Shown here: piece by piece, positions 51,939-55,605 of the stretch
Position numbering within the stretch: the first letter of the stretch is position 1
Layout of the letters: every line of letters begins with the position of its first letter
NCBI GenBank assembly: GCA_013822735.1
Contig: PNKZ01000021.1
Location: 1-64,000, forward strand
Direction of reading: 5' to 3'
Origin: Pirellula sp.
GTDB lineage: Bacteria; Planctomycetota; Planctomycetia; Pirellulales; PNKZ01
DNA: 64,000 bases
Program-made: the position numbers and the translations under genes
Notes under the pieces: model-generated
What the model saw: only the letters and a program-made list of their open reading frames with translations
Told to the model about the DNA's origin: nothing
Databases searched by the model: none

Positions 51939-51997
51939 CGCCTCCCCTCGCCCCTTGCGGGAGAGGGTGGCTCGGCGAAGCCGAGTCGGGTGAGAGG
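51939..51997 (+). repeat. 59-bp repeat, family C copy 1
   Basis: The element reads CGCCTCCCCTCGCCCCTTGC at its left and contains CTCGGCGAAGCCGAG, a short hairpin. The copy at 55341-55399 is in the same orientation and differs at three positions. The two copies bracket the integron cassette cluster. Confidence 0.85.
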
Positions 51998-52020
51998 TCG
52001 CATCGCACAACGTACAACTA

Positions 52021-52148
52021 CGCCATTAGCCCCCGGCGAGCCGCCGGGGGCAAACGACGTGACGACGCCGTTGGACGCCGCAGTTGCCACGACACACCGA
52101 TCGAGATCGCCGCGCGCATTGCCCCGGGCGACTCGCCCGGGGCTAAGA
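52021..52148 (-). repeat. Double-hairpin intergenic repeat, family A copy 3 (reverse orientation)
   Basis: Hairpin GCCCCCGGCG/CGCCGGGGGC (loop AGC) is at 52029-52051, and GCCCCGGGCGA with its complement is at 52121-52143, followed by TAAGAC. Order and sequence are those of copies 1 and 2 reversed. The linker is ~30 bases longer. Confidence 0.85.
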
Positions 52149-52221
52149 CGAAACGATTCACCGCACCGCGCGCAGCCCTGAAAGGGCACGATCCGAACCG
52201 TCGCCGCGCGTTATCCGGAAA

Positions 52222-52340
52222 CAGCCTATCACGCACGCTGAAGCGTGAAAAACGAGCAAGCATTTGATACGATTGAACTTAGACGGAAAACTGTCTTGCG
52301 TGATAGGCTGCGAAGGAGCGGTCTACAGCGTGATAGGCTG
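52222..52340. repeat. 14-bp inverted repeat with third direct copy, at left edge of cassette cluster
   Basis: CAGCCTATCACGCA at 52222-52235 is the exact reverse complement of 52297-52310, and GCGTGATAGGCTG recurs at 52328-52340. Together they flank a ~60-base AT-richer middle. The position just before the first core site is suggestive of an integration or recombination region, but the function is unknown. Confidence 0.75.
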
Positions 52341-52371
52341 ATCCGTCTAACAACATAGTTAGCTGTCAGCG

Positions 52372-52773
52372 ATGCACCTCACCCAGAATCCAAGCGATGA
52401 GGAGATTCTACACGTCGTTGAGGCGTGGCTTGACGATCTCGCGGGAGGCGACTACGAGGCAGCGTTTCGTCGCACTGAGCATGACCCTTACTATCAGTGG
52501 ACGCCTGACATCATGCGCTCGGTCGTGCAGGGCTACGGATTACCAGAGCCACACCGCAGCGGCACTGTATTCACCGTCACGCCGCGAGCGTCCGCACTTG
52601 GCGGTCCGCCACAGCGCATTGTTGACCGCGATGCCGTTCGTCCACATTCTTTGGCAGAGGTTTTGTATGACCTGCCACTCAATGGTGAGTGGTCAGACCT
52701 CACAGCGACATTCCGAGTCGAGCTGCGAGGTGAAGGTTCAGCGGTCGTGTTGCAGGAGATTCATGTGTTTTGA
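52372..52773 (+). CDS. Cassette 1 gene, small cytoplasmic protein of unknown function
   Basis: The 133-residue product starts at ATG 52372, 14 bases after the G of the first core site, without an obvious Shine-Dalgarno site. It has an acidic helical start (DEEILHVVEAWLDDLAGGDYEAAFRRT), then a mixed alpha/beta body with VLYDLPLNGEWSDLTATFRVE and a hydrophobic end (VVLQEIHVF). The overall look is of an NTF2-like or DUF7668-like domain; I am not certain of the family. Its stop lies 12 bases before the inverse core of attC1. No partner and no signal peptide. Confidence 0.72.
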   Translation: MHLTQNPSDEEILHVVEAWLDDLAGGDYEAAFRRTEHDPYYQWTPDIMRSVVQGYGLPEPHRSGTVFTVTPRASALGGPPQRIVDRDAVRPHSLAEVLYDLPLNGEWSDLTATFRVELRGEGSAVVLQEIHVF

Positions 52774-52785
52774 CGAGGCCATGAC

Positions 52786-52909
52786 GGCTAACCATTCGCT
52801 GCAGTTGGCCCGCAAGCCCTCGGCAAATTGGCTCTTTGACTTCGAGTGCGTTAGGATGATTCGCAAACCCGCTCAACTTCGGGCGGGCAACTGATCAATG
52901 GCGTTAGGG
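52786..52909 (+). other. attC site 1 (integron recombination site)
   Basis: The 124-base element has R'' GGCTAAC (52786), a 9-base spacer, then CAGTTG-G-CCCGC. The right side is GCGGGCAACTG, a 9-base spacer and R' GTTAGGG (52903-52909). The left L box matches the complement of the right one except for one extra G, the extrahelical base that sets attC bottom-strand polarity. The middle resembles attC3 closely. Confidence 0.88.
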
Positions 52910-52914
52910 GCACC

Positions 52915-53205
52915 ATGCCATTGTTTGCTCAGATGGCCGACATGGATATCGACGGCGTCGTCTTGTATGTCGGTATCTTGGCTTTGCTTAGTCCCCTGCT
53001 CGGATTACTTCTCAACTTGGCAATTTATCGCAGCCAGTTTCAGCCGAGGACTTGGAAGTACGTTTTTGCATACTATGGGCTCGGTGCAATTGCTCTAATT
53101 CTCCTGCCAGATGGCCCGCTGTTCTTCTTCGTGTTGCTCGGCATGTGTGCCGTGGGCCCAATTCTGGGGCTCGTCTTGTGCCTACACGAAAACAATAGTG
53201 CCTAA
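52915..53205 (+). CDS. Cassette 2 gene, small three-helix membrane protein
   Basis: The 96-residue product starts at ATG 52915. AGGGG of the core site itself is well placed to serve as ribosome binding site. It is strongly hydrophobic with three likely transmembrane helices (~15-37, ~48-64, ~68-90) and a charged end (CLHENNSA). No family recognised. Its stop codon TAA lies inside the inverse core (GCCTAAC) of attC2, a packing typical of integron cassettes. The coding sequence is visibly less GC-rich than neighbouring chromosome genes. Confidence 0.75.
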   Translation: MPLFAQMADMDIDGVVLYVGILALLSPLLGLLLNLAIYRSQFQPRTWKYVFAYYGLGAIALILLPDGPLFFFVLLGMCAVGPILGLVLCLHENNSA

Positions 53206-53324
53206 CAATCTGCTGCAGTTGACCCTTGCGGCACACCGCGAGTTTGGCTCGTTCGCTTCGGCCGAGTTACAATCAGCTAATGGCCCACTCACTCCGGGCG
53301 GGCAACTGACCAATACCGTTAGGC
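53200..53324 (+). other. attC site 2 (integron recombination site)
   Basis: The 125-base element starts with R'' GCCTAAC (53200-53206), then a 9-base spacer and CAGTTG-A-CCC. The right side is GGGCAACTG, a 9-base spacer and R' GTTAGGC (53318-53324). There is one extra A in the left L box. R'' and R' are perfectly complementary. Confidence 0.9.
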
Positions 53325-53328
53325 CCTT

Positions 53329-53577
53329 ATGTCCGTTACGATTCAGAATTGCGGTTGGGCGGTCAAGTTCCAATGCCCGCACCATTGGGATGCCTTACAG
53401 GCAACCGACGATCCGTACGTTCGCGATTGCGGCACCTGCTTGAAGCAGGTCTACCGCTGCGATTCTGATGCGGAAGTTCGGTTCCACGCCACGCAGGGGC
53501 ATTGCGTCGCCATTCTCGTTCCCGACATTTCAGATGCCGAGGCGGGCGACTTCATTGGTGAAGTTAGTGAGGCCTAA
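53329..53577 (+). CDS. Cassette 3 gene, small Cys-rich protein
   Basis: The 82-residue product starts at ATG 53329, 4 bases after the core site, with no Shine-Dalgarno. It has CPHHWDALQATDDPYVRDCG followed by CLKQVYRC and GHC, i.e. several cysteines and histidines suggestive of a metal-binding or redox fold. Similar short proteins with a DP.VR.C..C...V..C pattern occur in planctomycetes and myxobacteria, to my knowledge without a known function. The stop TAA is within the inverse core GCCTAAC of attC3. It appears complete. Confidence 0.75.
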   Translation: MSVTIQNCGWAVKFQCPHHWDALQATDDPYVRDCGTCLKQVYRCDSDAEVRFHATQGHCVAILVPDISDAEAGDFIGEVSEA

Positions 53578-53695
53578 CCATTTGCTTCAGTTGTCCCGCA
53601 ACTTCCCAGCAATTTGGCTCGATGGCTTCGAGTGCGTTACGATAATTCGCAGGCTTGCTCAACTTCGGGCGGGCAACTGAGCAACACCGTTATGC
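53572..53695 (+). other. attC site 3 (integron recombination site)
   Basis: The 124-base element has R'' GCCTAAC (53572-53578), a 9-base spacer and CAGTTG-T-CCCGC. The right side is GCGGGCAACTG, a 9-base spacer and R' GTTATGC (53689-53695). The extrahelical base is T. The centre shares long identical stretches with attC1 (for example CTTCGAGTGCGTTA), showing a common origin. Confidence 0.9.
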
Positions 53696-53705
53696 GGGAG
53701 CTTTC

Positions 53706-54413
53706 GTGGCCGAGCGCTGGGAGATTAATTTCGGGAAACCTGGACCGCCGAGTGAGCGACTAGGGAGCAAGTTTGGCGGGCAACCCGATTGGATCGAGTC
53801 GCCGGCGTGGCCGATGGGACGCACGTTGGGCGAGCCTATGCGATTCCTAGCACAGATCGAGTTGCCCGCGCCGCTACGAGTGGGTGGGCACCGCATGGCT
53901 TACCTGTTCCTCTCGGACCACGACTCGGACCGAGGGAACGCACCGTACCTCGACGACAGCGGGGACAACGCGGTGATCCTGCAAGGCGGGGTCGCCTTCA
54001 CAGCGAACGTAGAGACGATCGTAACGACTAAGGGCCCCACCCTGCGCCGTGGCATACAGTCGCGATTCGGCGGCAGCCGGATCGAGGACGACCCTGCTTC
54101 ACCGGAGGTGCAAGTGCCCGTCGACCTGAGAGCGACGATGGAGCCTGCGCCGCTCTCGGAAAGTGAGATCGCCGACCTGTACGCGCAGGACGAGCGTGCG
54201 TACCTCGCTTACTCATCGACGATGTCTCCGTCGAAGGTCGGAGGGAACCCTTATTGGCTTCAGGGGCCCGAAACACCGCTCGGCGGGCCGTGGCGTCTGC
54301 TAGCTCAGCTGGACGTCGCGCACGTTCCCTGCTGGGTTCCGTTTGATGGCTGGCTGTATGCCTTCGTCGCCACCGACGGGAGCGGCGCGCGGATGCTATA
54401 CCAGATCACGTGA
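53706..54413 (+). CDS. Cassette 4 gene, DUF1963/YwqG-like protein
   Basis: The start is probably GTG 53706, 17 bases after the core site, with CGGGAG 6 bases upstream. A TTG start further back would lie inside attC3. The 235-residue product has two repeats of the YwqG-like pattern: GGQPDWIESPAWPMG...MRFLAQIELP (~24-56) and GGNPYWLQGPETPLGGPWRLLAQLDV (~178-203). This matches the DUF1963 family, described in SMI1-type immunity contexts. It is the largest cassette gene and looks intact. Function is uncertain. Confidence 0.78.
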   Translation: MAERWEINFGKPGPPSERLGSKFGGQPDWIESPAWPMGRTLGEPMRFLAQIELPAPLRVGGHRMAYLFLSDHDSDRGNAPYLDDSGDNAVILQGGVAFTANVETIVTTKGPTLRRGIQSRFGGSRIEDDPASPEVQVPVDLRATMEPAPLSESEIADLYAQDERAYLAYSSTMSPSKVGGNPYWLQGPETPLGGPWRLLAQLDVAHVPCWVPFDGWLYAFVATDGSGARMLYQIT

Positions 54414-54445
54414 CGAATGACCGTTGCTTCACACGTACAACGACG

Positions 54446-54536
54446 GCATTACAAGGCGGTCAACCGGAGCGGCGGGCTGAGCGTTTTCACAAATCAAAGG
54501 TCACTGTCCGCCGCCCGGTTACCTTGGTCGTTAGGC
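54446..54536 (+). other. attC site 4 (integron recombination site)
   Basis: The 91-base element has R' GTTAGGC (54530-54536), a 9-base spacer, and paired L boxes AACCGG-A-GCGGCGG (left) and CCGCCGCCCGGTT (right), again with exactly one extra base (A) in the left arm. The R'' box (GCATTAC, 54446-54452) sits exactly 9 bases before the left L box but pairs poorly with R'. It belongs to a different sequence lineage from attC1-3. Confidence 0.8.
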
Positions 54537-54551
54537 TTCCGAGGATGTTCG

Positions 54552-54932
54552 ATGGCGGATCGCATCGACGAGTTGCATGGTGCCGGTTACGTGCGACTGC
54601 AGGCCGCCGACTGGGCCACGGCGCTCGGGTTGTTTGACGCTGCCCTCGCGATTCTTCCGCCCGACGACCCTATCGGCCCGGGTGAGCTGTTGAACTTAAA
54701 AGGTTGCGCGCTGGCGGGGCTCGGTCGCCACGCCGAGGCGCTGGCGGCCCAGCAGGCGGCGATCGCGGCCGGGCCACGGTGCCCTGAGTTCCTTACCGAC
54801 CTCGGCGACGCCCTCGCCGCAGTCGGCCAGCGGCAACAGGCCATCGCCGCATACGAGGAGGCGCTATCCAATGTGCTGCCCGGTGAGGACATCCTCGACC
54901 GGATTTACACCGGCCTCGATGCCCTCAGGTGA
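54552..54932 (+). CDS. Cassette 5 gene, TPR-like protein
   Basis: The 126-residue product starts at ATG 54552 with GAGG 7 bases upstream, 22 bases after the core site. It reads as a helical repeat protein: DWATALGLFDAALAILP, LLNLKGCALAGLGRHAEALAAQQAAIAAGP and LTDLGDALAAVGQRQQAIAAYEEAL. These are three TPR units with the A-x3-G-x3-A spacing. It is cytoplasmic with no signal peptide. TPR proteins on mobile cassettes probably mediate protein interactions, but the partner is unknown. attC5 begins 8 bases after its stop. Confidence 0.82.
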   Translation: MADRIDELHGAGYVRLQAADWATALGLFDAALAILPPDDPIGPGELLNLKGCALAGLGRHAEALAAQQAAIAAGPRCPEFLTDLGDALAAVGQRQQAIAAYEEALSNVLPGEDILDRIYTGLDALR

Positions 54933-54939
54933 CCGAGCG

Positions 54940-55034
54940 GCCGAACCATTCACTACACCTGACGCGGCGGCATATACTCGATTCAAATTCAATATATCGC
55001 CTGCCGCCGCGCAGGTGACCTCAAATCGTTAGGC
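54940..55034 (+). other. attC site 5 (integron recombination site)
   Basis: The 95-base element has R'' GCCGAAC (54940-54946), a 9-base spacer and CACCTG-A-CGCGGCGGCA. The right side is TGCCGCCGCGCAGGTG, a 10-base spacer and R' GTTAGGC (55028-55034). A 16-bp L stem with a single extra A is the clearest attC fold in the array. Confidence 0.9.
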
Positions 55035-55047
55035 TTACAAAAAGCAC

Positions 55048-55227
55048 GTGTCAAAAACGGACGAGTGTCATTCGACCGCGAGATGCCCGCAATGTGCCAA
55101 GCTTGGCCGCTTGATGCTTGAGCAGGTACGAATGCCTATCGAAGAGGTGCAACGTTCGAGGCAGTACTGCTTCTACGAGTGCGACTGCGGCGTCATCTTC
55201 AAAATCATGAGACGACTGAAAAAGTAA
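55048..55227 (+). CDS. Cassette 6 gene, 59-aa zinc-ribbon-like protein
   Basis: This short frame starts at GTG 55048, 20 bases after the core site, and ends TAA 55225-55227. The product MSKTDECHSTARCPQC... has CPQC (~13-16) and a second cysteine group CFYECDC (~41-47), compatible with a small zinc ribbon, then a basic tail ending RRLKK. No attC follows it, so it is the array's last cassette or a truncated one. The coding call rests on position, the clean frame and the paired cysteines. Confidence 0.6.
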   Translation: MSKTDECHSTARCPQCAKLGRLMLEQVRMPIEEVQRSRQYCFYECDCGVIFKIMRRLKK

Positions 55228-55251
55228 TCGGCCCCGCCAATCGCTCCGCCT

Positions 55252-55323
55252 GGACGACGAAAAGGCAACTGAACGAAAAGGCGCCTGGGACTACGTAAAG
55301 GCACCTGAACGAAAAGAGGCCTG
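55252..55323 (+). repeat. Two tandem 36-bp repeats
   Basis: Units at 55252-55287 and 55288-55323 share most positions (GGCACTGAACGAAAAG core, ending GCCTG), with about 5 differences. They lie immediately after the last cassette gene. Confidence 0.8.
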
Positions 55324-55340
55324 GAACCTTTCTCCGGTTC

Positions 55341-55399
55341 CGCCTCCCCTCGCCCCTTGCGCGAGAGGGTGGCTCGGCGAAGCCGAGACGGGTGAGGGG
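55341..55399 (+). repeat. 59-bp repeat, family C copy 2
   Basis: It is in direct orientation relative to 51939-51997, with 56 of 59 positions identical. It contains the CTCGGCGAAGCCGAG hairpin. It is the right bracket of the cassette cluster region. No gene lies in 55228-55605. Confidence 0.85.
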
Positions 55400-55605
55400 T
55401 GGATGGCGGGCCGGAACTGTTTCCTGAATAACCTGCAAGCTTGACGCCCCGCCCGGCCGGCAATTTCCGCAGACTATGCCGATGTTTCCTCGCACTTTCC
55501 GGGTGCCGGCGGCCGCGCTCACGGATTCCTAACAATACGCTCGTCGAGGCGTGACAATTTCTGAATAGGTTGATTGCGGTTTCATTCATAACCCGTCAAG
55601 GTTTG

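Follow-up and report, generated by a model that had tools for sequence, protein, structure and literature searches.

CALINs are among the commonest remains of integrons, and it is unsettled whether they are integrons that decayed or cassettes that were scattered. The term denotes a cluster of attC sites lacking an integron-integrase (IntegronFinder; PMC9024848). About a third of intI genes are pseudogenes (PMC2426708), and attI sites outside class 1 are poorly described (PMC9024848). In the sedentary chromosomal integron of the Treponema type, intI is transcribed toward attI (PMC3607928). Integrons have been documented in Planctomycetes (PMC2426708 and a survey cited there), and planctomycete attC sites have been used to train taxonomic models (PMC8352920).

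Here we describe an array in a planctomycete genome, G000 (6.88 Mb, 38 contigs, 99% complete), within a 64-kb window, the whole stretch of contig C21 that was analysed. On sequence comparison, the locus is very probably a chromosomal integron of the atypical type in which intI, attI and cassettes follow in that order, which has lost intI and retained attI and its promoter. What remains would be an attI core with a promoter reading into the array, five one-gene cassettes each with an attC site, and a sixth gene without one. The preliminary description called the array a CALIN, and operationally this stands, since it has five attC sites, where at least two are needed, and no neighbouring intI (PMC9024848). 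It is not a bare cluster, however: a conserved attI/promoter head lies at 52206-52364, and IntegronFinder seeks attI in class 1 only. The Treponema type is matched in the relative G016, where intI, head and cassettes run in one direction, and in G047, G036, G034 and G042, where intI fossils keep the same order; the differences are that the window has no intI and that there are many heads per genome rather than one platform. As in the pseudo-integrons described earlier (PMC2426708), decayed intI lies beside attI and cassettes at C5 and C6 of G000, except that here, across many loci of the one genome, intI is gone or cut to the end facing attI. Scattered cassettes not confined to one platform also recall insertion at attG sites (Loot 2024, cited in PMC12901181), but most of the scattered G000 arrays start at an attI head and not at an arbitrary genomic site.

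The array comprises six small co-directional genes and five sites with the attC layout, all on the + strand: S1 (52786-52909), S2 (53200-53324), S3 (53572-53695), S4 (54446-54536) and S5 (54940-55034). Each was recovered by a structural scan and placed in an alignment of 35 sites, drawn from the window's genome and relatives, that was analysed for covariation. The scan scored R''/R' complementarity and L''/L' pairing around one extra base on both strands, and S1-S5 were the sole matches above threshold in the 64 kb. Shuffled controls gave 1 match at the scan threshold in 10 windows; second-order Markov controls gave 0.07 matches scoring 13.5 or more per 64 kb, against 5 observed with scores of 14.6-16.3. 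The scan was written after the sites were known, so that independent support counts for more.

Across the 35 sites, a two-bulge structure pairs 89.7% of cells, compared with 18-35% when one strand is slid. Double changes number 76, where shuffles predict 28, and 11 pairs show compensatory change. The R boxes have complementary AAC/GTT ends, their positions 5-7 being paired in 34/35, 35/35 and 35/35 sites, and a 3-bp step (columns 13-15 with 115-117) is paired in 32/35, 22/35 and 34/35, with four pair types at its middle pair. Two extrahelical positions stand at fixed places both in the alignment and in folds of the bottom strands; read on the top strand, C predominates at the first and A at the second, which gives G and T, respectively, once the bottom strand is folded. 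The bottom-strand folding with extrahelical bases that had been proposed as a check was thus found in folds and covariation alike, and some details of the first account had to be revised. Where it gave exactly one extra base in the L pairing there are two, as in canonical attC sites, and its spacers of 9-10 bases are in fact 5-6 nt plus the partly paired 3-position step and the first extrahelical base. Complementary R boxes are perfect in S2 but imperfect in the others, R'' of S4 being degenerate (GCATTAC).

A 60-nt query of the catB3/aadA type, which we take to be the attC of aadA-type cassettes, is present in 699 plasmids and lies at catB3 among the matches listed. Its register (7 + 9 + 6 bp + bulge / 6 + 9 + 7) is identical to that of the window sites, so the 9-nt spacers, at one point considered an unusual feature, are no longer counted as such. 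In relatives with true intI genes, sites of identical register adjoin intI. Scan, covariation, the catB3/aadA comparison and these intI-adjacent sites all agree with the reported layout, and at the level of sequence S1-S5 are confirmed as canonical attC sites by layout, base pairing and covariation. Rfam gave no match in the window at gathering thresholds, nor in 52000-55600 at permissive ones. That this is an ordinary gene cluster whose REP-like intergenic hairpins mimic attC is hardly credible: the genome does carry many REP-like repeats, some of them inside arrays, but mimicry is contradicted by the two extrahelical bases with their covariation, the R boxes, the stops in the inverse core and the intI-adjacent homologues, and it is refuted by the covariation taken together with the intI-adjacent head in G016.

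All six genes lie on the + strand. Gene 1 (52372-52773, 133 aa) has a weak match to DUF7668 (E 1e-4, below cut-off). Genes 2 (52915-53205, 96 aa, apparently membrane-spanning) and 3 (53329-53577, 82 aa, cysteine-rich) belong to no family, and their stop codons (53203-53205 and 53575-53577) lie inside the inverse cores of S2 and S3, as had been noticed at the outset. Gene 4 (53706-54413, about 235 aa from a GTG after the S3 core) encodes a DUF1963 protein (PF09234, 51.2 bits, cut-off 23), gene 5 (54552-54932, about 126 aa) a TPR protein, and gene 6 (55048-55227, 59 aa) a CxxC-type protein that, like those of genes 2 and 3, matched no family above cut-off; no attC comes after it. Searches of the cassette genes with NCBIfam yielded nothing above cut-off, and PADLOC recognised none of them. 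The families suggested by these matches (DUF1963, TPR, weak DUF7668) point to no function of the array. The attC sites and the head recur at other G000 loci but the bodies of genes 1-5 do not, a combination that is the signature of past cassette exchange. A 137-nt segment covering the end of S5 and gene 6 is repeated, at 82% identity, following the lone attC at C5:272383.

Adjoining cassette 1 on the 5' side is the head (52206-52364, + strand), about 160 nt of conserved noncoding sequence that we designate type 2. It ends in an inverted simple site, GTCTAAC-AACATA-GTTAGCT (52345-52364, + strand), which is conserved in aligned heads and whose GTT begins cassette 1; from its sequence we identify this site as the attI crossover core, with the putative exchange point G|TT at 52358/52359. 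The direct repeat GTGATAGGCT (52300-52309 and 52330-52339, + strand) may provide accessory IntI-binding boxes, by resemblance to the direct repeats of attI sites. A candidate promoter, Pc, consists of GTGAAA (52245-52250) and TACGAT (52268-52273) on the + strand, 17 nt apart and in the same columns of the aligned heads. These hexamers are weak relative to consensus and were missed by a consensus promoter scan; the exact 17-nt spacer is present in 13/13 aligned heads, and relatives have TTGACA-like and TACAAT-like hexamers, so that a cassette promoter reading into the array is plausible. A repeat search also revealed an inverted repeat with 14-bp arms (52222-52235 / 52297-52310; 52222-52310 overall, no strand assigned), with compensatory changes in alignments of 7 and of 13 heads. 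It could be either a DNA element bound by IntI or another protein, or a leader RNA.

An attI site has two inverted boxes with accessory repeats, matched in the window head by the simple site and the direct repeat, and it adjoins intI and receives the first cassette. The window head abuts cassette 1 without an intI, and adjacency to intI is seen in its homologues, where intI is co-directional with the cassettes. In G016 the head comes immediately after an intI gene that points the same way, and in G047, G036, G034 and G042 it is preceded by C-terminal IntI fossils, for example TTMIYTHVLNRGGRGIRSPVD in G047, that end 15-34 nt before it. Because intI or its C-terminal fossils directly precede the head in these genomes, it is identified, by homology, as an attI belonging to an integron of the co-directional kind. 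One might instead propose that an IntI acting in trans inserted the cassettes at an ordinary attG-like chromosomal site, with no attI at the locus. This fits the absence of intI here, the attG insertions described (Loot 2024, cited in PMC12901181) and the attC loci of G000 without a recognised head, e.g. C5:272383, C12 and C11; but the window array begins precisely where a head ends (at its 3' side) that serves as attI in relatives with intI, which makes such an origin quite improbable. It is thus disfavoured for the window and possible at the headless loci. Separately, the co-directional intI of G016 (C330, L031), directly upstream of its head, has a frameshift just before the C-terminus in the assembly.

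Under the preferred reading, a chromosomal integron that lost its integrase gene, cassettes would have been added one by one at 52358/52359 while IntI was present, and the array would now be fixed unless IntI were supplied from elsewhere. Pc would drive the first cassettes, a possible reason for heads to persist after intI loss.

As first reported, the window contains no IntI: nothing in it matched the IntI profile, and the same search found at the locus no intact IntI with the integron-specific domain of a complete integron. The whole 38-contig draft of G000 likewise gave no integron-integrase profile match over the cut-off; the two best-matching genes, on C10 and C9, proved to be XerC/XerD-like and to lack the integron domain. 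Fossils of intI are present, all N-terminal: at C6:182739-182903, 62% identical to the IntI of the congener G003, and, each with a stop, at C2:420306-420416 and C5:168330-168464. Those at C5 and C6 are divergent and lie beside attI and cassettes. G003 itself, an assembly flagged as 8% contaminated, encodes an intact IntI (TIGR02249, 373 bits, cut-off 265), and the region next to it matches the attI/promoter region at C5 and C6, which defines a type-1 attI. This type-1 attI is kept in G000 without intI and adjoins intact intI in G003. Its 20-nt core occurs exactly at C5, C6 and C9 and with one mismatch at a second place on C5, making four type-1 copies in G000.

In every fossil found, what survives is the end of intI closest to attI: the N-terminal part where intI is divergent, the C-terminal part where it is co-directional. 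This fits in-place loss of intI and retention of the attI/promoter region. Directly upstream of the window head no intI remnant is detectable, so for this locus itself the loss is inferred from the relatives. It may be objected that, G000 being a draft of 38 contigs, an IntI could sit in a gap; the pattern is repeated, though, in G029 and G012, whose genomes are closed.

The comparison covered 57 genomes, G000 and relatives within its order, mostly drafts, with G001 and G003 from the same genus. A first covariance model of attC (R1), whose automatically derived structure was poor, gave way to R2, in which the two-bulge structure was set by hand; both were trained partly on window sites, and their E-values are rough. 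With R2, G000 has 33 attC sites, and with R1 matches included about 17 loci, so that the array is not isolated but one of many. The preliminary description called such arrays rarely described for this phylum; planctomycete integrons are documented, and attC matches occur in 28/57 genomes searched, with IntI over the cut-off in 9/57. The closed chromosome of G029 has 8 attC sites at about six separate places and no detected IntI, and the dispersal is therefore not an assembly artefact; two closed chromosomes within the order (G029 and G012) repeat the pattern.

Listed together, the left ends of the G000 arrays are not random. Random chromosomal insertion of cassettes, an earlier working idea, was rejected when these ends proved conserved. 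Profile and covariance searches found 8 type-2 heads in G000, 6 in closed G029 and 4 in closed G012; the type is present in 18/57 genomes of the order set and in just 3/149 in a phylum-wide sample, counting the window's own genome. Of the eight in G000, six are followed, 280-420 nt further on, by an attC of the same orientation. Copies of the window head in G000 include C1:1052182 (86% identical), C35:27835 (79%) and one on C17, and others are found in congeners. In a tree of heads the window groups with C1 (support 0.988) and then C35 (0.941), with the copies of G001 and G003 falling outside this group; heads have therefore also multiplied within the lineage, several of them presumably by duplication. 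The sharp left edge of the head had been considered as evidence of transposition and was dropped, being equally explained as the edge of constrained sequence. A third left-end type occurs at two C2 loci, at 418 kb and 550 kb (L073:8122-10450, L074:4400-4490), with promoter-like TTGACT and TATGCT or TAAGCT; one locus lies 1.6 kb from an intI N-terminal fossil. The search for an empty site gave no clean one: synteny with G001 extends no further than the SulP gene (51760), and the TPR gene of the right flank is unmatched in six relatives.

None of the heads in G000, G029 and G012 has an intact IntI, duplication occurred within the lineage, one congener (G003) has an intact IntI, and the cassette at the C9 head has an attC of a different type, short and catB3-like. 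These observations would suit a system in which intI-less promoter-attI heads are maintained and multiplied as satellites, served in trans by a transient IntI of the population. We regard this as tentative and on balance unlikely, since several heads or arrays are damaged, fitting decay: the C17 head has lost its core, and repeats interrupt the arrays at C1:571755 and C5. It and the decay of integrons in place are not mutually exclusive. A related proposal, about equally doubtful, is a dispersed system in which many intI-less heads are selected as landing sites and promoters for one IntI acting in trans; if true, it would contradict the picture of the chromosomal integron as one platform with one attI. 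If IntI acted on the heads in trans, a single integrase could supply many sites of expression.

In the open papers we found no description of many integrase-less attI/promoter heads per genome, or of this attI type, and the arrangement appears to be a new variant of the integron. Decay and scatter can here be read locus by locus, with attI heads marking former integrons and intI fossils lying on the attI side. Through the head model, attI can be approached beyond class 1, and former platforms are seen to be overlooked when only intI or only attC is counted.

Several repeats were observed around the arrays. A 60-nt direct repeat, 95% identical, flanks the window array at 51939-51998 and 55341-55400, and a third copy (84%) lies upstream of the C9 attI head; it may belong to a REP-like family, or it could allow recombination to delete the whole array. 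In several G000 arrays, short palindromic repeats (AAAAGGGGACATTCT ... AGAATGTCCCCTTTT) are positioned at attC sites or the intI fossil, or interrupt them (L067:5165-5240, L075:5111-5190, L189 near 5290, L078:5741-5787 and L072:7311), as if they often landed in integron hairpins. Finally, the single cassette of the C9 type-1 head is followed by a short, 56-nt catB3-like attC (CAAGCCGACGCC...GGCTTAA; C9:153420-153475, L134:2072-2127), which is unlike the local 95-nt and 124-nt attC families and looks imported.
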